Source of the DNA: a virus
Direction: 5' to 3' (one strand)
Length of the DNA stretch: 64,000 nt
IMG/VR virus record: IMGVR_UViG_3300049783_001426
Location: 1 to 64,000 of that record
Numbering within the stretch: position 1 is the first letter of the stretch; each line of letters opens with the position of its first letter. Position numbers and translations under genes: made by a program. Of the stretch, positions 5,919 through 62,349 are shown piece after piece. The notes under the pieces are model-generated. The model did no database searches and was not told the DNA's origin. It saw only the letters and a list, made by a program, of their open reading frames with translations.

Positions 5919-8318
5919 GTGAGTAGAGAAAAACAATTAGAATTAGAAAAAGAAATGCTTTCGTTAGGTGAGGAGAAGTATAGAAATGAACTTAGTGTAT
6001 CAGATGATTTTGACTCAGTTCATATTCAGAAAATTGTAACCAAGATGATTATTCCATTTTCTCAGGTAATTAAGAAAGCTATCGATAAAGATATAGCACT
6101 AAATGGTAATGGTACTATGCCGCCATTAAAGAGGCTAAACAACAAACATTTCTTCGTGAATGCATTATCCAAAAAAGAAATTGAATTAGGTAGTGAACGG
6201 GATACTACAGTAACCTGTATGCAACTGTCGTTTCTTGTGGTTAGGGGTATATTTATTTCTCTAAGAGAAGGTAAACGAACAGAATCATCATGTAATCGAG
6301 AGTTAGGTAAACAAATAAATTCTAATGTAATAACTGAGGAGAAATACCCAGATGTTGATGAACTTAGGATTGGTGCTACACTCAATGACTTATTGGTGAA
6401 TGCATACCCTGAGTGGTTTGATTTAGTGTGGGATAAAAAACACAAAATATACAAGAACCCATTTGATTTTATTGATTCAAAATCTAAGAAACGGGAATAC
6501 ATCATCACACCATCGGAAAAGTTTATGGACTTCTGTAGTGAGATTATAGAGGGTATTGCTGAAATTAGTGCGATCATTCATCCTATGATATATATACCCG
6601 ATGATTGGTCAGAAGACGGACGTGGTGGTGGTTTTTATAGTGAACAGTTGAAGCGTAATATAATTAAAAAGAAGGATATACATTATCCATCTGGTATCAA
6701 TGTCGATATAGCTGCTGCAGTCAATTCAATTCAATCTACACCATGGAAAGTTAATCATCAGGTGTTGTATGTATTGGACATGTTGAATATCATGGAAAAA
6801 CCCAGTACGTTACCTAAAATATTCCCAGAAACAGTAGAAGAAACACCGAAGAAACCATGGGAATCTATAGATAAAGAAAATCACACCGAAGAACAGGTTA
6901 TGGATGTTCGGAAATGGTGGCGTAAAGCAGCAAAATTAACTAAAGCGAGGCAAGCAAAGCGTTCACTTGACCTATCCACTAACTCGGTAATATTTCAAGC
7001 TAAAAAGTTTCAAAATGAGCTTTTTTTATACTTTCCCCATGACTTAGATTATCGTGACAGAATTTATAACAAATGTATGACTGGATTAAATACGCAAGGG
7101 TCTGATGTCCAAAAAGGTGTTTTACAATTTGCTCATGGTGAAGTACTGACAGCTGGTGGTGTCCGGTGGATGAAAATCAACATGGCTAATTTAGTTGGTC
7201 ATGATAAACTTAAGTTAGTGGAGCGGGTGGCTTGGGTTGATGACAATGAAATCTTACTGAGAACAGTTGCAACTGACCCAATAGGATGCAATATATGGCA
7301 TACATGGGACAAACCTATCCAAGGTCTAGCAAGTGCATTGGAATATATTAAATGGCTAGATAACCCACTAGAACCTGTTTTTTTGCACGTTCAATTGGAT
7401 GGACTATGCAATGGGGTGCAACACCTCTCTGCTATCACTAGAGACGCTGCTGTTGCGCCACATGTTGGGTTAATACCAACCGAACAACGCGGTGATGTTT
7501 ATCAATTTGTTTGTGATGCAGTAATTGAAGTAATTAAAAGTGATACTGATGGTTGGGCTGCCATGTCCAATGAGTGGATAGAGTCTGAATTATTAGATAG
7601 AGGTCTAACTAAAACCCCAGTAATGACCCGCTCATATGGTGCTAAGCTATATGGAATTAAAGAAGGTATTCAGGATTATATCGACGAAAAAAATAAAGAA
7701 GATTGCTTTAGTGATGTGTTTAGTAGCGGCAATTGGATGGGTGAGCGTATCTGGGATGGGATGTCGGAATCACTCGCAGGTCCGATGGCGTTTATGGAAT
7801 GGGTACAAAAATGTGCTGGTGTCTTAGCGAAGCATAATTTACCGATGAACTGGGTTAATCCAATCGGCGGGAAATGTTCACAGAGTCCGTTTAAGACAAC
7901 ATCAAAAACCCTCAAAGTTAAAATAAATGGTAGGCGGGTTGATTATAAAATACATACCCCGACTGATAAAATTGACAAAGGCAAAGCAGAGGCATCGTCA
8001 TCACCAAACTTAATACATGGTAATGATGCAAGCCACTTATTACTTACTGTAATCAAATGTTTATCTGAAGGCATAAATAAGTTTGCTATGGTACATGACA
8101 GCTTTGGTTGCCATCCAAATTACGCAGATAAATTACTCCTATGTGCTAAAGAGGCGTGGATTGAAATATACAGTAAGGATTGGATGCACATTTGGTATGT
8201 GGGTTGGTGTGAACAAATGCAAAGGTCTGGGTTTGATGTTGACCTACTGCCGTTACCACCAGAAAAGGGCACACTCGATATAACTAATGTTATGGGTTCC
8301 GATTTCTTTTTTGTGTGA
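5919..8318 (+). CDS. T7-type single-subunit RNA polymerase
   Basis: A DNA-directed RNA polymerase of the phage/mitochondrial single-subunit family, 799 residues (the T7 enzyme has 883). The palm and fingers motifs are clear: DYRDRIY followed by GLNTQGSDVQKG; motif A LDGLCNGVQHLSAITRD with catalytic D494; motif B K565 to Y573 (KTPVMTRSYG); motif C VHDSFG with catalytic D727. The C-terminus ends DFFFV, recalling the FAFA end of T7. The start is GTG at 5919 with a G-rich site upstream. The N-terminal promoter-recognition part is not obviously similar to T7, so its promoter sequence is unknown. It is read from the promoter at 5671 and probably transcribes later genes outside the window. An RNA polymerase of this kind with a T4-like replisome is a mixed genome plan. 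Confidence 0.96.
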   Translation: MSREKQLELEKEMLSLGEEKYRNELSVSDDFDSVHIQKIVTKMIIPFSQVIKKAIDKDIALNGNGTMPPLKRLNNKHFFVNALSKKEIELGSERDTTVTCMQLSFLVVRGIFISLREGKRTESSCNRELGKQINSNVITEEKYPDVDELRIGATLNDLLVNAYPEWFDLVWDKKHKIYKNPFDFIDSKSKKREYIITPSEKFMDFCSEIIEGIAEISAIIHPMIYIPDDWSEDGRGGGFYSEQLKRNIIKKKDIHYPSGINVDIAAAVNSIQSTPWKVNHQVLYVLDMLNIMEKPSTLPKIFPETVEETPKKPWESIDKENHTEEQVMDVRKWWRKAAKLTKARQAKRSLDLSTNSVIFQAKKFQNELFLYFPHDLDYRDRIYNKCMTGLNTQGSDVQKGVLQFAHGEVLTAGGVRWMKINMANLVGHDKLKLVERVAWVDDNEILLRTVATDPIGCNIWHTWDKPIQGLASALEYIKWLDNPLEPVFLHVQLDGLCNGVQHLSAITRDAAVAPHVGLIPTEQRGDVYQFVCDAVIEVIKSDTDGWAAMSNEWIESELLDRGLTKTPVMTRSYGAKLYGIKEGIQDYIDEKNKEDCFSDVFSSGNWMGERIWDGMSESLAGPMAFMEWVQKCAGVLAKHNLPMNWVNPIGGKCSQSPFKTTSKTLKVKINGRRVDYKIHTPTDKIDKGKAEASSSPNLIHGNDASHLLLTVIKCLSEGINKFAMVHDSFGCHPNYADKLLLCAKEAWIEIYSKDWMHIWYVGWCEQMQRSGFDVDLLPLPPEKGTLDITNVMGSDFFFV

Positions 8319-8321
8319 TGG

Positions 8322-8349
8322 TTTACTTTTACATTCAATCAGGTATCAT
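8322..8349 (+). promoter_or_regulatory. Sigma70-type promoter
   Basis: TTTACT at 8322-8327 and TATCAT at 8344-8349 with a 16-base spacer. The -10 lies in AGGTATCATATGCCT, a partial inverted repeat, and CCTACTGAA follows. It drives the unit that begins at 8379 and runs through uvsX, the helicase and ribonucleotide reductase. Confidence 0.7.
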
Positions 8350-8378
8350 ATGCCTACTGAAATTAAAGGGGTATTATT

Positions 8379-8582
8379 ATGATTACACTTGACCAATTAC
8401 TTGAACTAAAAGAATCAGAATCTTGGGTGCCTGCTTGTGGTGGTACCGAAAAACAGTTTATTATTAAGGGTAGGACGGTGCAGTATATGTGGAATACATT
8501 TACTAAAGAACATACTTATTATGATGTTCTTCGTGATGTGTTTTTGGAAAATGACGACCTTAAAGAACTAGGTCTTTTGTAA
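8379..8582 (+). CDS. Small hypothetical protein upstream of uvsX
   Basis: A 67-residue acidic protein, MITLDQLLELKESESW..., ending DDLKELGLL. It has no recognised domain. It is the first gene after the promoter at 8322 and ends 15 bases before uvsX, so it is co-transcribed with the recombination and replication genes. Confidence 0.65.
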   Translation: MITLDQLLELKESESWVPACGGTEKQFIIKGRTVQYMWNTFTKEHTYYDVLRDVFLENDDLKELGLL

Positions 8583-8597
8583 TTTTTAGGAGAGTAA

Positions 8598-9605
8598 ATG
8601 AGTAAATTATTAGATCGAATGAAAAAGCTATCTACTGTAGTAGGTTCAAGTGCGTTATCTAAATCAGAATTTTTTAAATATGATGTAACTCCAACAGCCA
8701 TTCCGATATTAAATTTAGCGTTTGGTGGTTCGGTTTTTAGTGGGTTAACGGGCGGCATAACTATGTTGGCTGGTGAGTCAAGAACATTCAAAACTGGCTT
8801 ATTAATTCAAATGGTTAAAGCATTTCAAGTTAAACATAAAACTGGTGTTTGTGTATTTTATGATAGTGAGTTTAGTTCTCTGGATTACTGGATTAGTGCA
8901 GGTATTGATATGGACCGAATACTTCATACTCCAGTAGTTACTATTGATGAATTGAAACATGACATGGCCAAGTTATTGGATAGTATTGAGCCAGAAGATA
9001 AAATTATGTTTGTTTGTGATAGTATTGGTGGGCTTGCTTCCAAAAAAGAAGCCATGGATGCAGTCGAACGTGCTGACATGCCAGTTGATATGACCCGCGC
9101 CAAGACTATGAATTCTTTGTTTCGTGTGGTTACTCCTGTATTAAATAAATTAAAAATAGATTTTGTACTGATCAACTCATTTTATGAAACAATGGATAAA
9201 TACCCAACCAGAGTTTATGCTGGTGGTAAGAAAGTGTTCCTATCCTGTGATGATGTTTTCTTTATTAGTCGCAGTAAGATTACACAAAAGGACACAAAAA
9301 AACTCGATGGTTTTACATTTACTCTAAATGCAGATAAATCTCGTACCGTTATAGAGGGTAGTAAGTTTCCGATTGCAGTTACATTTCAAGGCGGCATTGA
9401 TCGTTATTCTGGCCTATATGAATTAGCCAAAGAAGCTGGATTTATAGAAGTGTCCGGTGCTTGGGTTAAGTTAATGGACTTTGACACAAAGGTTATGGGT
9501 GGTAATGTGAGGGTTAAGGATATTAAGTCTGAATTTTATGAGGCATTAATAACTAACGATAAATTTACTGAGTTTGCATCAAAGAAATACAAACTAAATG
9601 GGTAA
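8598..9605 (+). CDS. uvsX: UvsX-like RecA recombinase
   Basis: Strand-exchange recombinase of the RecA/UvsX family, 335 residues (T4 UvsX has about 390). Walker A is GESRTFKT at 59-66, the UvsX-type variant of the P loop. The Walker B region is KIMFVCDSIGGL, and FVLINSFYETMD matches the DNA-binding loop region. It forms filaments on single-stranded DNA for repair and recombination-dependent replication, normally with UvsY and gp32. GGAG precedes the ATG. Its N-terminal KLLDRMKKL is echoed in the unknown protein at 16757. Confidence 0.95.
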   Translation: MSKLLDRMKKLSTVVGSSALSKSEFFKYDVTPTAIPILNLAFGGSVFSGLTGGITMLAGESRTFKTGLLIQMVKAFQVKHKTGVCVFYDSEFSSLDYWISAGIDMDRILHTPVVTIDELKHDMAKLLDSIEPEDKIMFVCDSIGGLASKKEAMDAVERADMPVDMTRAKTMNSLFRVVTPVLNKLKIDFVLINSFYETMDKYPTRVYAGGKKVFLSCDDVFFISRSKITQKDTKKLDGFTFTLNADKSRTVIEGSKFPIAVTFQGGIDRYSGLYELAKEAGFIEVSGAWVKLMDFDTKVMGGNVRVKDIKSEFYEALITNDKFTEFASKKYKLNG

Positions 9606-9608
9606 TTG

Positions 9609-11039
9609 ATGAGTAGTGGAATAGCAGATGGGGAAATGGGGTCGATTGTACTCAATAATATAATTAACAACATTACATATGCCTCAAAAGTTTTACCGTA
9701 CCTCAGTGCTGATTATTTTGTCGAGGAGACTGAGTGTTGTATTGCTCAAGTCTTGATCGACTATCACGCATTATATGGTAAGAGTCCAAACGTTAGAGAA
9801 ATTGTGGTCGAACTTAAGGAATTACCACAGATAACCAAATTAGATAAAAATACAGTAAATGATGTACTCGGTAATGGTGCGTACATAGTAACTGATAATG
9901 AATGGTTAACTAAGCACACCGAAAAATTTATACAACGCAGAAGGATAAGCCAAGCCTTCGAGAAAACATATGGTGATTTCGAAGCGGGTAATATTTTAGA
10001 TTCGATAGCAAATGTATTCCAAGAAGCGTTATCATTTTCTTTTGATAATTCTATTGGTCATAACTTTATATTAGACAGTCATCTGCGATACGATTTATAT
10101 TGTAGCGAAGAAGAAAGACTTAGCTTCTATCTTGAAATGTTAGATTTGGTCACAGATGGTGGTGTAGGTAAAGGTACATTGAATGTATTTCTTGCTGGTA
10201 CTGGTGTAGGTAAATCTTTGCTGATGTGCTCTATTGCCGCAGCTCAAGCTATGGCAGGTAAAAAAGTACTCTATATATCATTAGAGATGGCGGAGCTGAA
10301 ATTAGCAGAAAGATTAGAGTCTAATCTAATGGACGTACCATTAAACTCCTTGAAACATATGTCAAAAGAAGATTTTACTCTTCGTCAAAATATATACATA
10401 AAGAAAATGGAAAGTTTGGGTGGGAATATAATATTCAAACAATATCCAACGAGTTCTGCCCACGCTGGTCATTTTAGAAATTTACTTATTGAATGTAAAA
10501 ATAAATTAGATTTAGAATTTGATGTTATTTATATCGACTATCTAAATATTTGTGCAACTAATCGCGGTACTAACAGTGATAATTCTTACACTAAAGTTAA
10601 GAATATTGCAGAAGAAGTTAGGGCATTAGCTGTTGAATTTCAGGTACCTATTATTTCCGCAACACAAACAAATCGAAGTGGTCAGGAATCAAGCGATCTT
10701 AGTTTTGAGGATGTATCTGAATCACATGGCTTATCTGCTACTGTTGATTTATTATTTGGTCTAATGTCAAATGAAGAATGGGAGAAAACTAATAAAATAA
10801 TGGTTGGTCAAATAAAAAATCGATACGGTGACCCTAACTATTATAAGAAGTTCATGATTGGTGTAGAGCGTAGTAAAATGCGTCTATATGATTTAAAACG
10901 GGAAGCATCTAATGAAGTCAATTCTGGGCAATCGAGCAAAACAAATAGCACAGAAGGTGCGGATTTTGGTGCAATCGATTTGACAGTGCTTGGTGCATCT
11001 AGAGCTAATTCATTAAACTTTGATAAATTAAAAACATGA
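9609..11039 (+). CDS. 41: Replicative DNA helicase, gp41/DnaB type
   Basis: Hexameric 5'-3' helicase of the DnaB/gp41 family, 476 residues. Walker A is GTGVGKS at 197-203. The Walker B region is FDVIYIDYLNI, and the later ISATQTNRSGQ and QIKNRYGD segments match helicase motifs H3 and H4. The N-terminal domain (1-160) is helical as in DnaB. ATG at 9609 is preferred over TTG at 9606; the gene begins 4 bases after the uvsX stop. It should be loaded by the gp59-like protein at 35827 and work with a primase, which is not of the usual gp61 type in this window (see 48906). Confidence 0.94.
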   Translation: MSSGIADGEMGSIVLNNIINNITYASKVLPYLSADYFVEETECCIAQVLIDYHALYGKSPNVREIVVELKELPQITKLDKNTVNDVLGNGAYIVTDNEWLTKHTEKFIQRRRISQAFEKTYGDFEAGNILDSIANVFQEALSFSFDNSIGHNFILDSHLRYDLYCSEEERLSFYLEMLDLVTDGGVGKGTLNVFLAGTGVGKSLLMCSIAAAQAMAGKKVLYISLEMAELKLAERLESNLMDVPLNSLKHMSKEDFTLRQNIYIKKMESLGGNIIFKQYPTSSAHAGHFRNLLIECKNKLDLEFDVIYIDYLNICATNRGTNSDNSYTKVKNIAEEVRALAVEFQVPIISATQTNRSGQESSDLSFEDVSESHGLSATVDLLFGLMSNEEWEKTNKIMVGQIKNRYGDPNYYKKFMIGVERSKMRLYDLKREASNEVNSGQSSKTNSTEGADFGAIDLTVLGASRANSLNFDKLKT

Positions 11040-11299
11040 GAAATATGAGAAAAATTAAAATATATACTGCTGTTTGGTGCCCGTCATGTGTGATTTTACA
11101 TGAATGGGTATCTAAAAAAATATTAGAAGGTCTGTCTATTGATGTTGAATTTGTTGATGTTGATGTAGAATTTCAAGAATTGATAGACCAAGAAATTAAA
11201 ATAAAAACCCTACCATCATCATTATATAATGGTCTATTGTATACTGGGAGTGATAAAATCAAGGAAATTATATTGAAAGCTGAAGTTAAAAATGATTGA
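11036..11299 (+). CDS. Thioredoxin/glutaredoxin-like protein
   Basis: An 87-residue redoxin with the active site VWCPSC (C15 and C18) after a first beta strand (KIKIYTA) and the cis-proline segment IKTLPSSLYNG. The family donates electrons to ribonucleotide reductase (NrdH, T4 NrdC). Placement directly before nrdA, overlapping both the helicase gene (4 bases) and nrdA (8 bases), supports this. CPSC is unusual against the CPYC or CVYC common in this family. Confidence 0.88.
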   Translation: MRNMRKIKIYTAVWCPSCVILHEWVSKKILEGLSIDVEFVDVDVEFQELIDQEIKIKTLPSSLYNGLLYTGSDKIKEIILKAEVKND

Positions 11300-13166
11300 A
11301 TCATATTTAGGAATTGATATTGATTTAGCACGTGACGCTCTTTTACCTGAGCAAGGTAAGGTATTATTAACAAAAAAAGGGTTCTATAAAATGAACCACG
11401 AGACTAGTCCCCAACATGGTTTTGCTCGTGCAGCAACATCATATTGTTTCGGTGATTATGAACTAGCACAGCGTATATATGACGCTGCTAGTCTTGGATA
11501 TTTCACTTTCGCTAGTCCGGTACTCAGTAACGCACAAGAAGTTAATTGGCCTTATATGAATGAGGAGAATGATTTTGAAAAGTTGGGGTTATGGTTAGAA
11601 CAAAAAGTTAAACCACGTGGCATGCCAATTTCCTGTTTTCTTTCGTACATCCCTGACACTAAAGAAGGTTTAGTTAATGCAAACACGGAAACTAGATGGC
11701 TATCTATGCTCGGTGGTGGTATTGGAATATATCCATCTAATCGCTCACCTGACGCTAAATCTACTGGTGTTATGTCTCATCTTCGTGGTTATGATGCAGA
11801 TGCATTATCATATAAACAAACAGAAGCTCGTCGAGGTTCTATTGCAGCCTATATGAATATTGATCACCCTGAAATATTAACCTTTATTGACATGAGAAAT
11901 CCAGTTGGTGGTGACTCAAACACAAAATGTTTTAATATTAATAATGGCGTAAATATCACTGATGATTTTATGTATAAAGTCATTGGCGGTGAAAAATATG
12001 AGCTGGTGGACCCCAAGCATGGCGGTACTGGTCGTATGTTAGATGCCCGTGAAGTTTGGGAAAAATTAATGGAAGTTCGTTTTGAGACTGGCGAACCTTA
12101 TTTATTATATATTGATACCGTCAATCGAAACATACCCAAGCAAGTACGCAACCCGATGTATAATATAGTCCAGAGCAACCTATGTTCAGAAATTACGTTA
12201 ATGACGTCAGAAAAAAGAACAGCTGTGTGTTGCCTATCCTCTCTTAATTTAGAAAAATATGACGAATGGAAGGATATAGGTTTAGTTGGCGATTTAATTC
12301 GTATGCTTGATAATGTATTGGAATATTTCATCAGGTTGGCACCACCAGAATTAAGCCGAGCTGTTTATTCAGCAAAAAAAGAACGTGCTTTAGGGTTGGG
12401 GACTTTAGGATGGCATAGTTATTTGCAATCCAAATCAATCCCATTTGAATCCGGTGGATTTAATAGTGCCATACAACACACTAATTTGATTTATAATAAC
12501 ATCAAAAATCAGGCAGAAACCACATCAAAGTGTTTAGGTATAGAAAGGGGTGAATCTCCTGATTGCAGAGGTTCTGGGTTTAGAAATAGCCATCTTATGG
12601 CATTAGCACCGAACGCGTCTAGCTCTCAAATGATTAACGTATCCCCTTCGGTTGAGCCATGGTCTGCTAATGCATTTGTTAGCAAAGGAAGAGCTGGTTT
12701 GTTTTTGATTAAAAACAAACACTTAGATAAAATATTAACTCAATATGCAGCAGACATGAACAGCAATGATTATGACGAACAATGGTTGGCTGACATATGG
12801 AAAGATATTATTGATAAAAACGGTAGTGTCCAACATCTAAATTTCTTATCTGAGCATGACAAGAAAGTCTTTAAAACATTCACTGAGATTGATCAAATGT
12901 GGGTGATTGAGCAGGCTGAGCACCGAACACCAAAGATTTGTCAGTCATCATCACTGAATATTTCGGTAGCCAAGGGAGTAACGCTGCAGGAAATGTCAGA
13001 TATCCATATGGCGGCGTGGTGGAAGGGAGTAAAGTCTTTGTATTACTGCAGAGCAGAGGCTGCAGTCCAAGCTAAAGTCTCTGATGGTGGAATCAAGGCA
13101 CCGCTAAATGCGGTTGCAGTTGAAACTGAAAATAAATATGAAGAATGTAGAAGCTGTGAAGGGTAA
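11292..13166 (+). CDS. nrdA: Ribonucleotide reductase class I large subunit
   Basis: Reduces ribonucleoside diphosphates to deoxy forms, with NrdB. 624 residues, much shorter than E. coli or T4 NrdA (about 755-760). The sequence starts near where the catalytic barrel begins, and the N-terminal ATP-cone that senses dATP is missing. Active-site residues are present: C115 (PISCFLSY), N296-C298-E300 (SNLCSEITL), C313/C314 (AVCCLSSLN), ALAPNASSSQ, and the radical-transfer tyrosines in SLYYCRAE. The C-terminal swinging pair is C619 and C622 (ECRSCEG). Loss of the cone predicts an enzyme not shut down by dATP. It lies in an operon with the redoxin and nrdB. Confidence 0.96.
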   Translation: MIESYLGIDIDLARDALLPEQGKVLLTKKGFYKMNHETSPQHGFARAATSYCFGDYELAQRIYDAASLGYFTFASPVLSNAQEVNWPYMNEENDFEKLGLWLEQKVKPRGMPISCFLSYIPDTKEGLVNANTETRWLSMLGGGIGIYPSNRSPDAKSTGVMSHLRGYDADALSYKQTEARRGSIAAYMNIDHPEILTFIDMRNPVGGDSNTKCFNINNGVNITDDFMYKVIGGEKYELVDPKHGGTGRMLDAREVWEKLMEVRFETGEPYLLYIDTVNRNIPKQVRNPMYNIVQSNLCSEITLMTSEKRTAVCCLSSLNLEKYDEWKDIGLVGDLIRMLDNVLEYFIRLAPPELSRAVYSAKKERALGLGTLGWHSYLQSKSIPFESGGFNSAIQHTNLIYNNIKNQAETTSKCLGIERGESPDCRGSGFRNSHLMALAPNASSSQMINVSPSVEPWSANAFVSKGRAGLFLIKNKHLDKILTQYAADMNSNDYDEQWLADIWKDIIDKNGSVQHLNFLSEHDKKVFKTFTEIDQMWVIEQAEHRTPKICQSSSLNISVAKGVTLQEMSDIHMAAWWKGVKSLYYCRAEAAVQAKVSDGGIKAPLNAVAVETENKYEECRSCEG

Positions 13167-23035: not shown

Positions 23036-23296
23036 ATGTCAGTTATAACTCTAACAACCAAACAAAGAAGTAAGATAAAAAGAGCTATAAAAGCACTTAA
23101 TGATGTTAGACGAGAATTACAGAATGATAATAATGACTGTGATGTTCAATGGTATCTTGAAGACTCCGGAAACTTAAATTTAATGTCGGGCGACTCGCAT
23201 GATGAAACTAGTGGAAGTGGATACGGAGATACATCGAGGCAGGATAGAGTTATAGCTATATTCGATTTAGATAATGCTGGCGGGGGTGCGTGGTAA
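23036..23296 (+). CDS. Hypothetical protein, second of a duplicated pair
   Basis: 86 residues, clearly paralogous to 22533: TKQRSKIKRAIKALNDVRRE, DCDVQWYLEDSGNLNLM, GDSHDET, VIAIFDLDNAGGGAW. The C-terminal GGGGGTGCGTGG codons act as ribosome site for the next gene, whose ATG overlaps this stop by one base. The conserved end may therefore partly reflect translation signals. Confidence 0.7.
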   Translation: MSVITLTTKQRSKIKRAIKALNDVRRELQNDNNDCDVQWYLEDSGNLNLMSGDSHDETSGSGYGDTSRQDRVIAIFDLDNAGGGAW

Positions 23297-23778
23297 TGAA
23301 TATTGGTTCTGGTTCTGGTTACCCAGAGAGTGCGTTATCTAATTTTGCTCCACATGCATTTGTGTTTGATGGTGTTGATTGCGCTAGCATGGAAGGTCTA
23401 TTGCAGTCATTTAAATTTAAAAATGAAATGATGCAGGCACACGTTTGTACCTTGGTGGGAAAGAAAGCTAAGTTTAAAGGTAAACCAAAAAAATGGTATA
23501 AGACGCAAACTCTCTGGTGGAAAGGTTTGGAACTAAAAAGAAACAGTCAGGAATATCAGGGCTTATTAGATGCCGCATTTACTGCCTTGGCCACCAACAC
23601 TAAATTTATTAAGGCATTGACGGCTACAAATAATGCAGTACTAAAACATTCTATTGGTAAATCTGATATTAGTCGTACAATATTAACCACCTCAGAATTT
23701 TGTAGCCGACTTACTAAAATTAGAGATGGAATAGAAATAAAACAAAATGAAGATTTTTGGTCGTTGTTTAATACTTAG
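23296..23778 (+). CDS. NADAR-family (YbiA-like) protein
   Basis: 160 residues. SGYPESALSNFAPHAFVFDG followed by SMEGLLQSFKFK is the conserved start of the NADAR/DUF1768 family. Bacterial members include YbiA, an N-glycosidase acting on riboflavin intermediates, and others are linked to ADP-ribose metabolism and removal of ADP-ribose from guanine. In a phage this could undo ADP-ribosylation by host defence or take part in NAD recycling, which fits the NAD gene pair at 59907-62349. The ATG at 23296 overlaps the upstream stop. The link to defence is inference. Confidence 0.85.
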   Translation: MNIGSGSGYPESALSNFAPHAFVFDGVDCASMEGLLQSFKFKNEMMQAHVCTLVGKKAKFKGKPKKWYKTQTLWWKGLELKRNSQEYQGLLDAAFTALATNTKFIKALTATNNAVLKHSIGKSDISRTILTTSEFCSRLTKIRDGIEIKQNEDFWSLFNT

Positions 23779-27298: not shown

Positions 27299-27508
27299 AT
27301 GCTTCAAATAATAGATGACGTCACCAACTCTCAAGGCATAACCACATTTGAATTTAGTGATGGTACTACTTTGAATGCTAGGCAGTTGCATCACATCTCA
27401 GGGGCACCATTTGTGGCAATAGATAAGGTCACTGCACTGCAATGTAACTTAGTAATGGGTTGGAGCGGCTGCGCCATGCACCGTGATGCCGAACAGAGGA
27501 AATCCTAA
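27299..27508 (+). CDS. Hypothetical protein
   Basis: 69 residues, MLQIIDDVTNSQGITTFEFS..., a small beta-rich protein with WSGCAMHRD near the end. Its end overlaps the next start by one base (TAATG). Function unknown. Confidence 0.6.
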   Translation: MLQIIDDVTNSQGITTFEFSDGTTLNARQLHHISGAPFVAIDKVTALQCNLVMGWSGCAMHRDAEQRKS

Positions 27509-27984
27509 TGAGTAAGAAGAAAATTAAGCCAAGGGTATTCATAATGAAAAATAAGCTAAGCCTTAAGCCAACTTTTATATCACAATTAACAGCATTGGCA
27601 ACCACGATGGACACTACAGTAGAATATGAATTTGATATGTATTCTTATTGCAAAACTGCATGTTGTATTTGTGGTCACCAAGTCAAAACAAATAAATTAG
27701 ATTTATTTCCGCTGGCTAAAAGTTCTCGATGGCCTGAAACCAAGGCTAGGGTTCTATTAGATGACCTAAATTATGCATGTGAGCGACTGCTCGGTGAGTC
27801 ATATCTATCAATGTCAGTTCATTACTCAGGCTCAGTCAGTAGACGTAATAAAGCAAGACTTTCTAATCTACTTAATAATGAACAGCTTATGCACGAGCAC
27901 CTGACAGGAGAATCAAGTCCCAAAATTTCTGCGGATTATATGAGAATGCTCATTGGTATTTTATCAAAAAATAAGTTGGGTTAA
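27508..27984 (+). CDS. Hypothetical zinc-site protein, paralog A
   Basis: 158 residues. After a basic extension, KLSLKPTFISQL begins a domain shared with the gene at 27988: ACCICGHQ, LDLFPLAKS, LNYACERL, SSPKISADYMRMLIGI. CCxCG plus a later cysteine (NYAC) may bind metal. No known family is recognised. The two genes arose by tandem duplication. Confidence 0.7.
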   Translation: MSKKKIKPRVFIMKNKLSLKPTFISQLTALATTMDTTVEYEFDMYSYCKTACCICGHQVKTNKLDLFPLAKSSRWPETKARVLLDDLNYACERLLGESYLSMSVHYSGSVSRRNKARLSNLLNNEQLMHEHLTGESSPKISADYMRMLIGILSKNKLG

Positions 27985-27987
27985 CTA

Positions 27988-28713
27988 ATGAATAATAAGC
28001 TAAAAATTAAGCCAACTTTTATATCACAGTTAATGGTATTGGCAGTCACCATGGACAAAACACCATCATCGGGATTTTTTATGGGGTCTTGGTGCGGAAC
28101 TTCATGTTGTATTTGTGGAAATCAAGCGATTACTAATAACTTAGATTTATTTCCATTAGCTAAAAGTGCTCGTTTGTTGGTCACGAAGGCTATGTTTGTG
28201 TCGGATGAGTTAAATTATGCTTGTGAACGCCTGACCAATGAAACAAAATTATCTCGTTCAGTATATGAAGCATTTTCTACAGCTAGGCATAACATGGCAT
28301 CTAGTTCCGGCTTACTTAATAAACATCAGCTTAGACACCCCCATCTTAATGGAAACTCAAGCCCAAAAATCGCAACTGATTATATAAGAATGATTATTGG
28401 TATTGTATCGAAACCAGAAATATTCGCAGAACGTATAATTTTAAATAAAGCACCACTAGGGGCAACTCATTACTTAATTAATCAATATAATTTTACAGAG
28501 GGTTATTTTCAACTAACTGAAGATTGTGATGTATTGGTTGATGGATTTAATGGCTGGGAGACAGTCGATATTGATATTTCAATAAACGGCAATCATGAGG
28601 TTCGGTGCATATCTGATATAGCGCGTCAAGTAGAATTGTTCGATAAAATCACTGAGCTTGAGCAAAACAATGGGATTGTGTCGACAGTTGCCTGCCTCAT
28701 GGGGGGTTTGTAG
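27988..28713 (+). CDS. Hypothetical zinc-site protein, paralog B
   Basis: 241 residues. The first 140 match paralog A (IKPTFISQLMVLAVTMDKT, SCCICGNQ, LDLFPLAKS, LNYACERL, SSPKIATDYIRMIIGI). The last 100 residues are unique and beta-rich (GATHYLINQYNFTEGYF), so one copy gained or the other lost a domain. It lies 3 bases after paralog A. Its TAG overlaps a GTG start downstream. Confidence 0.7.
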   Translation: MNNKLKIKPTFISQLMVLAVTMDKTPSSGFFMGSWCGTSCCICGNQAITNNLDLFPLAKSARLLVTKAMFVSDELNYACERLTNETKLSRSVYEAFSTARHNMASSSGLLNKHQLRHPHLNGNSSPKIATDYIRMIIGIVSKPEIFAERIILNKAPLGATHYLINQYNFTEGYFQLTEDCDVLVDGFNGWETVDIDISINGNHEVRCISDIARQVELFDKITELEQNNGIVSTVACLMGGL

Positions 28714-52256: not shown

Positions 52257-52466
52257 ATGTTAAATGAAAAAATGAAATCGGTTATAGCTGCCTTACGTAA
52301 TGGTAAATATAATCAATCTAAGGTTAGCCTGCAAGATTCTGATATGCAGTGCTATTTAGGTGTTTTATGTGACGAAAAGGAAACTGGGCATAAAAGTAGA
52401 CGTAACTCATCCCCAGAAATCGCTGTCGTTGATAACACAAACACAGAAGGATTACTTATATGTTAA
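52257..52466 (+). CDS. CCLGV-family array, copy 1 (shortened)
   Basis: 69 residues. The N-terminus MLNEKMKSVIAALRNGKY and the SLQDSDMQCYLGVLCDEKETG core (written in parts) match the other copies, but everything between the ETG and the C-terminal tail is replaced by a short stretch (HKSRRNSSPEIAVVDNTN). It ends TEGLLIC instead of PEGLLV. It is probably a degraded or internally deleted copy. Its last codons carry the ribosome site for copy 2, which overlaps by 7 bases. Confidence 0.75.
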   Translation: MLNEKMKSVIAALRNGKYNQSKVSLQDSDMQCYLGVLCDEKETGHKSRRNSSPEIAVVDNTNTEGLLIC

Positions 52467-52807
52467 ACGAAAATATGAAATCGGTTATAGTTGCCCTACG
52501 TAGTGGTAAATACAAGCAGACCGTAGGTGCTTTACAAAATAGCTGTGGTCATTGCATACTTGGTGTAATTTGTGAGGTGTACGAAACAGACACTGGGGAA
52601 AGTCCAAAACGTGATTTGCGTGGTCGATTAATAGGTGAAGATTTATCTAGCCATATGGATGTACAGGAGTGGGTGGGTTTAGTGGACGGTGACGGTGATT
52701 GCGGCATTAGTAGACCATCACTAATGACTATGAACGATATACACAAAAATACATTCTCGGAAATCGCTGATTTTATTGAGTCTAATCCAGAAGGATTATT
52801 AGTATGA
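52460..52807 (+). CDS. CCLGV-family array, copy 2
   Basis: 115 residues. Here the core is GHCILGVICEVYETDTG, the least conserved of the full-length copies. The variable segment is ESPKRDLRGRLIGEDL, then WVGLVDGDGDCGIS, MNDIHKNTFSEIADFIE and PEGLLV. ATG overlaps copy 1, and its stop overlaps copy 3 by ATGA. Confidence 0.8.
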   Translation: MLNENMKSVIVALRSGKYKQTVGALQNSCGHCILGVICEVYETDTGESPKRDLRGRLIGEDLSSHMDVQEWVGLVDGDGDCGISRPSLMTMNDIHKNTFSEIADFIESNPEGLLV

Positions 52808-53148
52808 TAAACAAAAATATGAAAAAAGTGTTGGTTGCCTTACGCTCCGGTGAATTTACACAAACTGTAGCAAAATTACAAGATAGTTCTGGCCACTGTT
52901 GTTTAGGTGTGATGTGCGAAGTTTATGAGAAAGAAACTGGTGATGAACTTCCGCGTGACCAATCAGATTTTTTAGTGGGCAATAATCTTAACGACCATCA
53001 AAATGCATTACTTTGGCTGGGGCTAAGCAGCCCTCAAGGGCATAATGAGGTTGGTAGCAGCCTTATTTGCAGAAATGATTTTAATAGAAATACATTCTTA
53101 GAAATTGCTGATTTCATCGAATCTGAACCAAAAGGATTATTAGTATGA
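52804..53148 (+). CDS. CCLGV-family array, copy 3
   Basis: 114 residues: MINKNMKKVLVALRSGEF, LQDSSGHCCLGVMCEVYEKE, ETGDELPRDQ, WLGLSSPQGHNEV, NDFNRNTFLEIADFIE, SEPKGLLV. It differs from copy 4 mainly between residues 60 and 95. Where the other copies have MND it has RND. The 4-base overlap with both neighbours is kept. Confidence 0.8.
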   Translation: MINKNMKKVLVALRSGEFTQTVAKLQDSSGHCCLGVMCEVYEKETGDELPRDQSDFLVGNNLNDHQNALLWLGLSSPQGHNEVGSSLICRNDFNRNTFLEIADFIESEPKGLLV

Positions 53149-53519
53149 TAAACAAAAATATGAAAAAAGTGTTGGTTGCCTTACGCTCTGGTGAATTCAC
53201 CCAAGCCGAAGGTATGCTACAATGTTCTGGTGGCCACTGTTGTTTAGGTGTGATGTGCGAGGTTTATGAGAAAGAAACTGGTGATGAACTTCCACATAAT
53301 AGCATGGGGTTTTTGGTAGGTGGGGATCTTGATGGGCAGTTTTTTGGTAAAGTAAAGAGTTGGGTGGGACTAAAAAGTTACTCTGGAAAATTTGTTGGTT
53401 CATCGGGTAATCCCAATACTCCCAATAATTCACTAGTGGATATGAATGACACATTAAATAAGTCATTCGATGATATTGCTGATTTCATCGAAACTGAACC
53501 AGAAGGATTATTAGTATGA
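53145..53519 (+). CDS. CCLGV-family array, copy 4 (longest)
   Basis: 124 residues. The first 50 are nearly the same as copy 3 (MINKNMKKVLVALRSGEF, GHCCLGVMCEVYEKETG, DELP). The variable part is longer and glycine/serine-rich (GSSGNPNTPNNSLVDMND). Core cysteines in GHCC and VMC are kept. Ends TEPEGLLV with the stop overlapping copy 5. Confidence 0.8.
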   Translation: MINKNMKKVLVALRSGEFTQAEGMLQCSGGHCCLGVMCEVYEKETGDELPHNSMGFLVGGDLDGQFFGKVKSWVGLKSYSGKFVGSSGNPNTPNNSLVDMNDTLNKSFDDIADFIETEPEGLLV

Positions 53520-53869
53520 TAAACGAAAATATGAAGAAAGTTTTAGTTGCCTTACGTTCCGGTGAATATCAGCAAACTAAATGTAAATTACAAGATAGTT
53601 ATGGTCACTGTTGTTTAGGTGTGATGTGTGATGTTTACGAAAAAGAAACTGGTGTCAAACTTCGACGAGATACTGATAATTATATAAATGGATACAGTCT
53701 TGTCTTTATACAAGAAGTGCAGCAGTGGGTTGGATTAACTGATACACATGGTACATTTATGTCACCAAGTAAACCATACTCACTAGCGACGATGAACGAT
53801 CTTGAGGATAAAACATTCCTAGAAATTGCTGATTTCATCGAAACTGAGCCAGAAGGATTATTAGTATGA
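53516..53869 (+). CDS. CCLGV-family array, copy 5
   Basis: 117 residues, MINENMKKVLVALRSGEY start and DVYEKETGVKLRRD after the core (D in place of the E found in other copies). The middle (NYINGYSLVFIQEVQQWVGL) is the most divergent in the array, suggesting different binding surfaces. TMND, FLEIADFIETEPEGLLV end conserved. Confidence 0.8.
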   Translation: MINENMKKVLVALRSGEYQQTKCKLQDSYGHCCLGVMCDVYEKETGVKLRRDTDNYINGYSLVFIQEVQQWVGLTDTHGTFMSPSKPYSLATMNDLEDKTFLEIADFIETEPEGLLV

Positions 53870-54201
53870 TAAACGAAAATATGAAAAAGGTTTTAGTTGC
53901 CTTACGTAGTGGTGAATATAAACAAACTCAATATAGATTACAAGATTCTGGTGGCCACTGTTGCTTAGGTGTGATGTGCGAAGTTTATGAGAAAGAAACT
54001 GGTGTCAAACTTCCGCGAGATGGTGTATCAGGTTTTATAGTAGGTTCTAATCTTAATAAATTTCCGTTAGTAAAGAGCTGGGTGGGATTACACGAAGACA
54101 TCGTAGCTGATGTTAATGCGAATATCGATTTACTGGTGGGTATGAATGACACATTTAATAATTCATTCGATGAAATCGCTGACTTCATCGAAACTGAATA
54201 A
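53866..54201 (+). CDS. CCLGV-family array, copy 6 (early stop)
   Basis: 111 residues. It matches copy 7 closely in GVKLPRD, GFIVGSNL and PLVKSWVGL. A TAA replaces the CCA codon after IETE, so the PEGLLV tail is absent. The ribosome-site bases AAAGGATTATT remain, untranslated, in front of copy 7. This shows that the site has value beyond the peptide it encodes. Confidence 0.78.
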   Translation: MINENMKKVLVALRSGEYKQTQYRLQDSGGHCCLGVMCEVYEKETGVKLPRDGVSGFIVGSNLNKFPLVKSWVGLHEDIVADVNANIDLLVGMNDTFNNSFDEIADFIETE

Positions 54202-54212
54202 AAAGGATTATT

Positions 54213-54566
54213 ATGATAAACGAAAATATGAAGAAAGTTTTAGTTGCCTTACGTTCCGGTGAATTCACACAAACAACATCAACCTTACAAGATAGTTGTG
54301 GTCACTGTTGTTTAGGTGTGATGTGTGAAGTTTACGAAAAGGAAACTGGTGTCAAACTTCCGCGAGATATATCAGGTTTTATAGTAGGTTCTAATCTTAG
54401 TGGTTTTCCTCTAGTAAAGAGCTGGGTGGGATTAAATAAAGACAACGATGCGGGTCATGCAGATGGCAGTATATATTCACTAGTGGATATGAACGATAGG
54501 CTCAATAATACTTTCTTAGAAATTGCTGATCATATCGAGTCTCAACCAAAAGGATTATTAGTATGA
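54213..54566 (+). CDS. CCLGV-family array, copy 7
   Basis: 117 residues. The start is 11 bases after the copy 6 stop, the only real gap in the array. Core LQDSCGHCCLGVMCEVYEKE has an extra cysteine. Variable loop NKDNDAGHADGSIYSLVDMND, then NNTFLEIADHIESQPKGLLV: DHIESQ is shared only with copy 8. Confidence 0.8.
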   Translation: MINENMKKVLVALRSGEFTQTTSTLQDSCGHCCLGVMCEVYEKETGVKLPRDISGFIVGSNLSGFPLVKSWVGLNKDNDAGHADGSIYSLVDMNDRLNNTFLEIADHIESQPKGLLV

Positions 54567-54907
54567 TAAACGAAAATATGAAGAAAGTTTTAGTTGCCTT
54601 ACGCTCCGGTGAATATAAACAAACTCAAGAATCGTTACAAGATAAATCTGGTCACTGTTGTTTAGGTGTGATGTGTGAAGTTTACGAAAAAGAAACTGGG
54701 GATACTATCCCCCGTAGTAGTAGTGGACTTATTATCGGTGGTGATCTTGGTGTAAGACGCCAAAAAGTAAGACGCTGGGTGGGACTAAAACATCATAACG
54801 GTTCGTGCTTGGTTGGCAAATCACTAATTTCTATGAATGACGCAAATAAGTCATTCATAGAAATTGCTGATCATATCGAGTCTCAACCAGAAGGGTTATT
54901 AGTATAA
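54563..54907 (+). CDS. CCLGV-family array, copy 8 (last)
   Basis: 114 residues. Core LQDKSGHCCLGVMCEVYEKE; variable part DTIPRSSSGLIIGGDLGVRR, WVGLKHHNGSC, SMNDANKSFIEIADHIE, SQPEGLLV. It ends with TAA rather than the overlapping TATGA used between copies, so the array ends cleanly here, 15 bases before the next promoter. Confidence 0.8.
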   Translation: MINENMKKVLVALRSGEYKQTQESLQDKSGHCCLGVMCEVYEKETGDTIPRSSSGLIIGGDLGVRRQKVRRWVGLKHHNGSCLVGKSLISMNDANKSFIEIADHIESQPEGLLV

Positions 54908-59906: not shown

Positions 59907-60779
59907 ATGTTTAACGATATTAGGGTAATATTAAATAATAATGTGGGTATGAGTGTTATAGTCAGTCAGTTTAATGATGGGTCGGTTAATGTATGCCTAC
60001 CACCTGATGTACGCTGTCCGATTAGTGTGGGTTCGATTGTAGTGCGTGCTAAATTGACAAGTTCTGTTAGTTTAGTTGCATTGTTACTGACGGTTGATGC
60101 GTGTCGTCGGAAATTCCCAGATTTACAATTCATCTCTTTGGTTGCTCATTATATGCCATACGCAAGACAAGACCGTGTGTGTAATATGGGTGAGTCACTT
60201 TCGTCGAAAGTTATGGCTGGCCTTATTAATGGTTGTGGTTTTAGTAGTGTGACTATCGCAGACCCACACAGTGATGTGATGGTGGCGTTGATAGATAATT
60301 GTAAAGTTATTAGTGCAGAAAGTATCATTGCTTCTAATGAAGTTCTATCTAATAGAATTATGGGTGGATTTTATACACTAGTTGCGCCGGATGCTGGCTC
60401 AAGAAAGAAAGTAGAAAAAATCGCAACACGTTTTGGACTCGATGGATTTGTGCAGGGGTCAAAACATAGAAACTTAAAGACTGGGGAATTGTCAGAAATA
60501 ACATTTAGTGGTGATGTCCAAGATAAACATTGCCTTATCATAGATGATATATGCGATGGTGGTGGGACATTCGTTGGTCTAGCAGAAATAATGAAGGAAG
60601 CTGGGGCACTTAGTGTAGATTTGTATGTGACACACGGGTTCTTTTCTCGTGGCACCGATACAGTAAATGGCGAAAATAAGGCAATAAACCAAATATTCAC
60701 AACAGACTCAATTAGCAGAGACCAAGGCACACGTAAGTCTCTTAATATAATCGAAATAGGAAATAATAATTATGAGTAA
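59907..60779 (+). CDS. PRPP-synthetase-like enzyme of NAD salvage
   Basis: 290 residues of the ribose-phosphate pyrophosphokinase family. VAHYMPYARQDRVCNMGES is the ATP/catalytic flexible loop region with H81 (shown in part), IADPHSD holds the metal site, and CLIIDDICDGGGTF is the PRPP-binding loop. Classic enzymes have about 315 residues. In phages that rebuild NAD after its destruction by defence (NARP1), a relative of this enzyme (Adps) makes ADP-ribose pyrophosphate. Here the neighbour is the matching Nampt-like gene, overlapping by 8 bases. Which substrate is used cannot be read from sequence alone. Confidence 0.88.
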   Translation: MFNDIRVILNNNVGMSVIVSQFNDGSVNVCLPPDVRCPISVGSIVVRAKLTSSVSLVALLLTVDACRRKFPDLQFISLVAHYMPYARQDRVCNMGESLSSKVMAGLINGCGFSSVTIADPHSDVMVALIDNCKVISAESIIASNEVLSNRIMGGFYTLVAPDAGSRKKVEKIATRFGLDGFVQGSKHRNLKTGELSEITFSGDVQDKHCLIIDDICDGGGTFVGLAEIMKEAGALSVDLYVTHGFFSRGTDTVNGENKAINQIFTTDSISRDQGTRKSLNIIEIGNNNYE

Positions 60780-62349
60780 CGTCGTACCAGCAACATTAGC
60801 AAAAGATGCATACAAGGCATTTCACCCATTAGCATATCACCCTGATGTCTCAGAAGTTTATGCAAATTACATAAATCGCTCTGGTCGTTTAAGTAATATA
60901 CCAACTAAGATAAATCTTGGTGGTGTAGTTAATATTGGCGCACAAAGATTCTGTATGGATTTCTTAATTGGCGAGTTTAATGATACTTTCTTCAACCTAG
61001 ATGAAGATGTGGCCATTGAGCAGCATGCTCGTGTATTTAGAGCTATGTTAGGGCGAGCATTTAGCGACGAAAGACTACGTAAACTACATAAGTTGGGTTA
61101 TCTTCCTCTTCGCCTTAAAACACTACCAGAAGGCACAATAACTCCGTATGGTGTTGCTAACATTACTGTGCGATCAACCAAATCTGATTTTCAGTGGTTA
61201 ACAAACTCAATTGAAACTGTATTGAGCTGTGAAGTTTCTGGTATATCTACTTCATGCACCACAGCCACTGCATACCTAAAAACTTTTATTAAATATGCTC
61301 GACTCACTGGATTAGATGAAGAATTCTGTCAATTTCAGGGGCATGATTTTTCAATGCGCGGTATGATTTTTGGTCGACATGGCGCATACCTTTCTGGTTT
61401 AGGGCATCTTGCATCTGGCTTAGTTGGTACCGATACCATGGGTTCAGTTTTATTAGCCGAGAAATTCTATGGCGCAAACCTAGAAACTGAGTTAGTTGGT
61501 GTATCAGTTGATGCAACAGAACATAGTGTAACTTGTTCTTGGATCGAAGAAGGCGAAGAAGAGTTCTGTAAATATTTAATGAGTAAAGCTTCACCTTCCG
61601 GTATTCTTTCGGTAGTTGCTGACACTTGGGACTTTGAGAATTTTGTGTGCAATATTGTACCTAAATTAAAAGAAGCAATTATGGCACGTGATGGGTCGTT
61701 TATAATCCGCCCCGACTCTGGTTGTCCGGTCAAGGTATTAACTGGTTATACTAGCGAAGAAGTGAGCATGGATTATCGCGGTAAATTCTACCCACTTGAT
61801 GATGATGGCGAAGTAGATTATTATTCTAAAGCCCTAACACAATTTGAAATTGATGGCCTCATTGAAACATTATGGAATCAATTTGGTGGCACACTAACTG
61901 ATAAAGGTTATAAGCTTTTAGATGAGCATATTGGTGCAATTTATGGGGACTCAATTACATTAGAACGTCAAGAGCTAATCTTACAGCGTTTAATGGATAA
62001 GGGGTTCGCTTCTAAGGTTGTCCTTGGTATTGGTAGTTACACGTATCAACACGTGACACGCGACACACATGGCTCTGCAGTAAAAGCTACTAGTATGATT
62101 AAAGATGGCCGTCGCGTTGCTATATTTAAAGACCCTAAAGGTGATAGCAGTAAGAAATCCGCGAAAGGTTTGTTGTATGTTGGTCGCGATGAGAATGGTG
62201 TAATACACCAATTTGATGATGTATCTGAGGAACACGAAAGAGAAGGTTTATTGGAAACTATATTTTTGGATGGTAAAATGGTTAAAACCACTACACTAAA
62301 AGAAATTCGTGCTCTAATTATGTCACAGCTCCAAACTCAACTTAAATAA
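60772..62349 (+). CDS. nadV: Nicotinamide phosphoribosyltransferase-like enzyme
   Basis: 525 residues of the Nampt/NadV family. Conserved blocks: GISTSCTTATAYLK, QGHDFSMRGM, GAYLSGLGHLASGLVGTDTM, VSVDATEHSV, VVADTWDFENFV, FIIRPDSG, GIGSYTYQHVTRDTHG and AVKATSM. Nampt joins nicotinamide to PRPP to make NMN. The related Namat of NARP1 joins it to ADP-ribose pyrophosphate, giving NAD directly. The pair is translated together. No NMN adenylyltransferase is seen nearby, which favours NARP1 but does not prove it. Confidence 0.93.
   Translation: MSNVVPATLAKDAYKAFHPLAYHPDVSEVYANYINRSGRLSNIPTKINLGGVVNIGAQRFCMDFLIGEFNDTFFNLDEDVAIEQHARVFRAMLGRAFSDERLRKLHKLGYLPLRLKTLPEGTITPYGVANITVRSTKSDFQWLTNSIETVLSCEVSGISTSCTTATAYLKTFIKYARLTGLDEEFCQFQGHDFSMRGMIFGRHGAYLSGLGHLASGLVGTDTMGSVLLAEKFYGANLETELVGVSVDATEHSVTCSWIEEGEEEFCKYLMSKASPSGILSVVADTWDFENFVCNIVPKLKEAIMARDGSFIIRPDSGCPVKVLTGYTSEEVSMDYRGKFYPLDDDGEVDYYSKALTQFEIDGLIETLWNQFGGTLTDKGYKLLDEHIGAIYGDSITLERQELILQRLMDKGFASKVVLGIGSYTYQHVTRDTHGSAVKATSMIKDGRRVAIFKDPKGDSSKKSAKGLLYVGRDENGVIHQFDDVSEEHEREGLLETIFLDGKMVKTTTLKEIRALIMSQLQTQLK

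Follow-up and report, generated by a model that had tools for sequence, protein, structure and literature searches.

Why should a phage keep eight related but different small genes in one row, and what might their products do for it? The window analysed here, a stretch of 64,000 nucleotides, is part of a virus record of 85,638 bases (G000) and carries such a row on the plus strand at positions 52257-54907 (Table 1). An initial reading of the bare letters (in the following, the sequence-only reading) had described eight paralogous open reading frames, arranged head to tail on the same strand. This description was borne out, with seven complete copies and a truncated copy 1.

Layout of the arrays and their genomic surroundings

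The full copies 2-8 of this array (array 1) encode proteins of 111-124 aa. Chance likeness can be excluded, since every full copy matches the protein family phrog_18067 with E-values of 1e-11 to 4e-21, and the profile recognizes all eight copies, including the truncated one. Copy 1 has indeed lost its middle segment, as had been proposed, and its core is also damaged (QCYLGVLCD--EKETG), so that part of the residues conserved in phrog_18067 are gone. The list of motifs thought to be kept by all full copies, among them WVGL, MND and EIADFIE, holds broadly but is looser than claimed: copy 2 reads GHCILGVICEVYETDTG, copy 3 has WLGL and RND, and copy 4 has DIADFIE.

Table 1. Coordinates of the array copies, an example junction and the second array
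Feature	Position	Strand	Remarks
Copy 1	52257..52466	+	69 aa, truncated, decaying, no middle; 3' end overlaps start of copy 2; phrog_18067 E 2.8e-7
Copy 2	52460..52807	+	115 aa; most divergent among the full copies
Copy 3	52804..53148	+	114 aa; first 60 nt and core with 95-97% identity to copy 4
Copy 4	53145..53519	+	124 aa; mosaic: N-terminal block and core copy 3-like, C-terminal block copy 6-like
Copy 5	53516..53869	+	117 aa; C-terminal block and tree position closest to array 2 copy 3
Copy 6	53866..54201	+	111 aa; C-terminal PEGLLV peptide lost through an early stop
Copy 7	54213..54566	+	117 aa; 78-nt middle block in common with copy 6, C-terminus with copy 8
Copy 8	54563..54907	+	114 aa; AlphaFold2 model, pLDDT 92.7
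Example junction 2-3	52789..52806	+	AGAAGGATTATTAGTATG; stop of copy 2 overlaps start of copy 3 (ATGA)
Array 2	G000:65441-66877 (L048:3442-4881)		4 complete copies, outside the window; same clade as array 1

Successive copies are joined by an ATGA overlap at the junctions 2-3, 3-4, 4-5, 5-6 and 7-8, by a 7-nt overlap at junction 1-2 and by an 11-nt gap at junction 6-7. From the gene overlaps we infer that the copies of array 1 are carried on one message. Since the codons of the conserved C-terminal PEGLLV include AAGGA about 8 nt upstream of the next ATG, this tail probably also serves the following copy as its ribosome-binding site (Shine-Dalgarno). Copy 6 no longer encodes the peptide, yet its DNA, AAAAGGATTATT, persists ahead of copy 7, where it is likely the ribosome-binding site of that copy and would support the dual use of the tail.

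The second array lies further downstream in the same record, and its copies are 97-100% identical to one another over their first 60 nt. Because array 2 adds four complete copies to array 1, the total for G000 is 11 full copies plus one remnant. The window contains genes for a ribonucleotide reductase, a Dda-like helicase, a primase and a dCMP deaminase. The gene directly after array 1 encodes a protein of 668 aa belonging to phrog_1735, with relatives in 491 phage records, including Klebsiella phage KB57 and Proteus phage Mydo. None of 31 records of phages sharing this neighbour gene has any member of the array family. The family is therefore accessory and patchy in its occurrence.

These surroundings bear on one possible explanation of the array, namely that the copies are adaptors for host takeover which bind different metabolic, transcription or replication proteins of the host, and not defence proteins. 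The proximity of replication and nucleotide genes (primase, Dda-like helicase, dCMP deaminase) would suit such a role, and some other loci of the family also lie near replication or recombination genes. Factors directed against conserved host enzymes should, however, be kept more evenly than in 0 of 31 related phages, and we consider takeover adaptors rather unlikely.

Several other features of this phage were noted. A single-subunit (T7-like) RNA polymerase-like gene was recognized by eye at positions 5919-8318 of the window, as were SbcCD-like and PhoH-like genes in the same phage. Another tandem duplicate is found at 27508-28713, where two adjoining genes are 59% identical over 145 aa and share a conserved CCICG motif. 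Between the two arrays, at 59907-62349 of the window, genes for ribose-phosphate pyrophosphokinase and nicotinamide phosphoribosyltransferase (NAMPT) adjoin each other, a pair for NAD+ salvage that resembles the NAD+-reconstitution pathway of phages (NARP-like). The protein encoded at 23290-23778 looks NADAR-like by eye (NFAPHAF, NSQEYQ); the Pfam NADAR model finds no such protein in G000.

Protein family and predicted fold

All of the 60 members that we aligned match one and the same PHROG, phrog_18067 (E down to 1.4e-26), and thus belong to this family by profile; its entry in PHROGs v4 carries no function. Neither Pfam nor NCBIfam provided a credible match for the family, and a PDB sequence search returned no match at E-values up to 10. 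Among the four copies scanned with PADLOC, only one had matches, which were weak Cas12 fragment matches of at most 15.1 bits, and none was credible. We found no paper on the family under its motif or its PHROG name.

The AlphaFold2 model of copy 8 is a compact domain of approximately five short helices and small strands (pLDDT 92.7, pTM 0.87), and a distant single-copy member is predicted with the same order of elements (pLDDT 87.8). A fold search of the PDB with both models gave no match at an E-value of 0.001 or better, and the listed matches had a probability of at most 0.12. In a viral structure library, the top matches were only uncharacterised or unnamed phage proteins. Since the library of solved structures that was searched holds no match, a solved structure of a family member could reveal a new fold.

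In the alignment of 60 members, L13, L25, C32, L34, G35, V36, N92, D93 and F98 are invariant, and S15, G16, Q20, C33 and C38 are nearly so. The most variable columns form the loops on either side of helix 64-73. Several of the invariant residues are positioned at the starts or ends of helices and may have a structural role.

For the copy 8 model, the fold search listed an NlpC/P60 protein (2k1g; probability 0.12, TM 0.30). An NlpC/P60 or papain-like cysteine peptidase was nevertheless rejected, because the 60 members have no conserved histidine despite the invariant Cys32 and because the match is gone with the second model. No histidine is among the polar residues Q20, C32, C33, N92 and D93, whose role may be largely structural, and we therefore favour a binding (inhibitor) mode over catalysis.

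Binding might also concern a small molecule. Like Tad1, Tad2 or Acb2, the scaffold could act as a sponge or sensor for a ligand common to the copies, for instance a nucleotide or second messenger, and the variable loops would then tune the choice of ligand or the assembly of hetero-oligomers. The array proteins are small and accessory, and their set of polar residues (the five named above) is invariant or nearly so; the known sponges, likewise small proteins of phages, bind a variety of ligands (PMC12043709); and NAD+-related genes are present in the same phage (59907-62349). The PDB fold search, which listed no sponge and nothing at E 0.001 or better, speaks against it, as does the possibility that the invariant residues at helix starts and ends serve the structure. 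The associations with NADAR and NAMPT were moreover unsupported in controls. Taken as a whole, including the tuning by loops, the sponge or sensor reading appears somewhat improbable.

The controls on gene associations gave the following picture. NADAR is not enriched as a partner, being found in 3 of 30 carriers of the family versus 8 of 26 non-carriers. NAMPT (phrog_448) was present in 9 of 13 multi-copy phages versus 1 of 16 in a first sample of non-independent lineages (p=0.001). This association was not replicated in a second sample (7/20 vs 5/27, p=0.31), nor in that sample without the lineage related to the first one (4/17 vs 5/27, p=0.72). The 91 flanking proteins inspected have no shared partner, with no PHROG or Pfam family occurring in more than two of them.

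A possible parallel to the family was noticed in proteins of the phrog_572 type with a C-x-x-G motif. One is encoded 1.1 kb after array 2 (G000 ~67959-68369; L048:5960-6370), and another (L100:1489-1881) follows directly after two family copies in a different phage (G009). They end in ADYIE and have a similarly placed CC-x-V-G motif. A profile comparison, with few sequences available for the C-x-x-G family, gave a probability of 3.5 and did not show homology. To us these proteins look like a distant parallel of phrog_18067.

Distribution, turnover and selection

A first scan of viral contigs yielded 36 loci, and two further viral scans confirmed at least 565 and at least 586 relatives. Among 50,697 records of isolated phages, only 11 have a member, and these are phages of Alteromonas, Alishewanella, Synechococcus, Bradyrhizobium and Stenotrophomonas. 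Members are numerous in uncultivated phages and rare among isolates. In bacterial genomes we detected 12 loci; most of the nine inspected by eye adjoin phage-like genes.

The statement that single members occur in other phages was confirmed, and the counts per whole record elsewhere run from 1 to 9. There are nine copies in G003, eight in G002 and in G006, seven in G007 and in G067, and five in cyanophage B23. Of 142 further stretches, 33 have two or more copies, which is a biased rate since some stretches are repeats of a single contig and the scan preferentially recovered relatives of array members. In the phylogenetic tree, one clade (99/97) unites the 11 full copies from G000 and a second (98/94) the four array copies from cyanophage B23; those from L001, L004, L021, L024 and L031 also group by genome. 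This clustering by genome indicates that the expansion took place independently in many lineages.

The proposal of ongoing duplication and recombination is strongly supported by segment-wise mosaics, by a permutation test and by an exchange between two close relatives. Within G000, the nearest neighbour of a copy changes from segment to segment. Copy 4 is 95-97% identical to copy 3 in the N-terminal block and core and 89% identical to copy 6 in the C-terminal block. The local blocks that had been reported were found again: copies 6 and 7 have 78 nt in common with 87% identity (54026-54103 with 54370-54447), and copies 7 and 8 share the C-terminal ADHIESQP. A PHI-type permutation test on the G000 copies gave p=0.0005, a value that differences in rate along the gene can inflate, since the test assumes exchangeable sites.

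The clearest case of exchange comes from L115 and L127, two stretches from different metagenomes. Every 250-bp window is identical at 8001-10000, and at 11001-12750 the two are at least 96.8% identical. At approximately 10040-10990, inside the array, L115 has one extra whole gene and a replaced block, the encoded proteins of which are 80-94% identical. Across about 3.5 kb, the differences lie mainly within the array, and the first breakpoint is close to the 5' end of a copy, inside a conserved block. L115:10040-10990 compared with L127 is a natural cassette swap between near-identical phages. The array is not the sole mosaic region, since L115 and L127 diverge again further right. An exchange of cassettes between close relatives would also suit rivalry among phages, with the copies acting against competing phages or satellites or protecting from them. 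No immunity or repressor features were noticed, and a repertoire for superinfection or competition seems very unlikely to us.

Do the individual copies matter to the phage? Compared among the 11 full copies from G000, the core has a pN/pS of 0.08 and the N-terminal helix one of 0.16, against values of 0.72 and 0.83 for two variable segments; positive selection cannot be judged from these paralogs because their synonymous sites are near saturation. Orthologous copies are more informative. Six copies of L002 and L007 pair one-to-one in the same order, and the copy in the last position is recognizable in all five related arrays with approximately 70% identity. Whole-gene dN/dS between orthologs is 0.16-0.23 in the four pairs where it could be estimated. 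By segment it is at most 0.36, with the middles at 0.06-0.36, and no value above 1 was found in the ortholog comparisons. The frames are intact in nearly all copies. Since the order of orthologs is kept and dN/dS is well below 1, the persistent copies are conserved each as itself.

These results refine the picture of hypervariable middles. Between paralogs the middles are highly variable indeed; between orthologs they are constrained, and the rapid substitution that the term implied is not seen. The diversity arises mainly from old divergence of paralogs after duplication and from the exchange of whole genes. A diversity-generating retroelement was rejected as an origin, the reverse transcriptase domain PF00078 being absent from the 85,638-base record (which may be a fragment).

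Two simpler explanations of the array can be weighed against the same data. It is conceivable that all copies share one job and that tandem amplification merely raises the output, as the sequence-only reading had offered as an alternative. The overlapping copies in a single orientation fit this, and there is an experimental precedent in the segmental amplification of T4 tifA that overcomes toxIN (PMC9391042). Recent dosage amplifications, however, consist of near-identical copies, whereas divergence is wide here, with an aligned identity to copy 8 of 57-65%. Orthologs also stay distinct from one another's neighbours and in a fixed order, at a dN/dS well below 1. With each copy keeping its own sequence and position under purifying selection, a dosage array is quite improbable. 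The second explanation is a nearly neutral, selfish duplication, in which the repeats promote their own unequal crossing-over and the copies are barely useful. The decaying copy 1, the strong variation in copy number and the turnover between near-identical phages could all be read in this way. It would leave unexplained the purifying selection in the comparisons with enough changes and, given that neutral DNA is shed from phage genomes, the intact frames of almost every copy, and we regard it as very improbable.

The sequence-only reading had named in advance what would contradict it, namely neutrally evolving middles with degenerate frames in relatives or near-identical copies elsewhere. It withstood this comparison: reading frames are preserved, dN/dS lies well below 1 and copies elsewhere are just as divergent. 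The arrays are recombining birth-and-death cassettes of individually conserved members, and we are highly confident of this structural and evolutionary description. Pure dosage, neutral drift and fast diversification by point mutation are all unlikely, and the copies look like related but specialised tools rather than spare duplicates.

Proposed function and comparison with known systems

What might these tools do? We favour target binding, most likely directed against anti-phage defence, since the genes are phage-borne and accessory, occur patchily, are conserved copy by copy and are exchanged among close relatives. One small conserved scaffold carries two loops flanking a short helix, different in every paralog; the fold would be set by the scaffold and the target by the loops. 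Each copy would be a small protein, early or accessory, binding a single target in the host, the likeliest targets being components of anti-phage defence and next to them other host regulators. Copies overlap stop to start and are gained, lost or swapped through breakpoints in or near the conserved blocks, and whole-gene exchange would adjust the composition of the array to the hosts or rivals that the phage encounters.

The confidently predicted fold, with its variable columns in the loops around helix 64-73, is in line with such a repertoire. The earlier suggestion of adaptors or inhibitors against varied targets agrees with the way the copies evolve, and it is the step to binding itself that we infer. 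On the other side, an intense arms race at the interface might show itself in dN/dS above 1, of which no case was found, and the flanking genes are diverse, mostly replication genes or unknowns, without known anti-defence genes. Altogether, a repertoire of small target-binding accessory proteins, probably serving counter-defence, is in our view plausible but tentative. It is a bolder and less probable generalization that the scaffold is a general-purpose recognition module in hundreds of phages, arranged in independent tandem cassettes in which whole-gene swaps of specificity provide updatable binders of host targets, probably of anti-defence type.

Counter-defence and takeover genes of phages are mostly found singly. 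If the proposed repertoire is real, a scaffold that is repeatedly multiplied and shuffled while selection acts on each copy would yield candidates by the hundred, together with a testable rule: the copies that a phage carries should predict the hosts or defences that it is able to overcome. Even if the function turned out to be mundane, the arrays would still show cleanly, in nature, how viral genes evolve by birth and death. Neither the array form nor the turnover of arrays was found described in the papers searched.

Among known systems, the internal-protein locus of T4 comprises several variable genes with a common N-terminal part. The T4 internal proteins IPI, IPII and IPIII are counter-defence proteins that overcome strain-specific defences (PMC9391042) and, like the array proteins, small accessory phage proteins. 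In the array family, however, the whole fold is common to the copies, and the genes adjoin replication genes. The amplified tifA of T4 likewise consists of tandem copies of a small phage gene made by recombination; these are recent repeats of one gene, whereas the array copies are old, diverged and individually conserved. The sponges Tad1, Tad2 and Acb2 (PMC12043709) resemble the array proteins as small accessory phage proteins but do not occur among the fold matches of our models. A private multi-copy expansion of one small protein family is also known from Bacillus phage G, in which a lineage-specific zinc-ribbon protein has reached about 35 copies (PMC7824862). That expansion concerns a different family and a single phage, whereas the phrog_18067 family is present in hundreds of phages and has undergone repeated tandem expansions.
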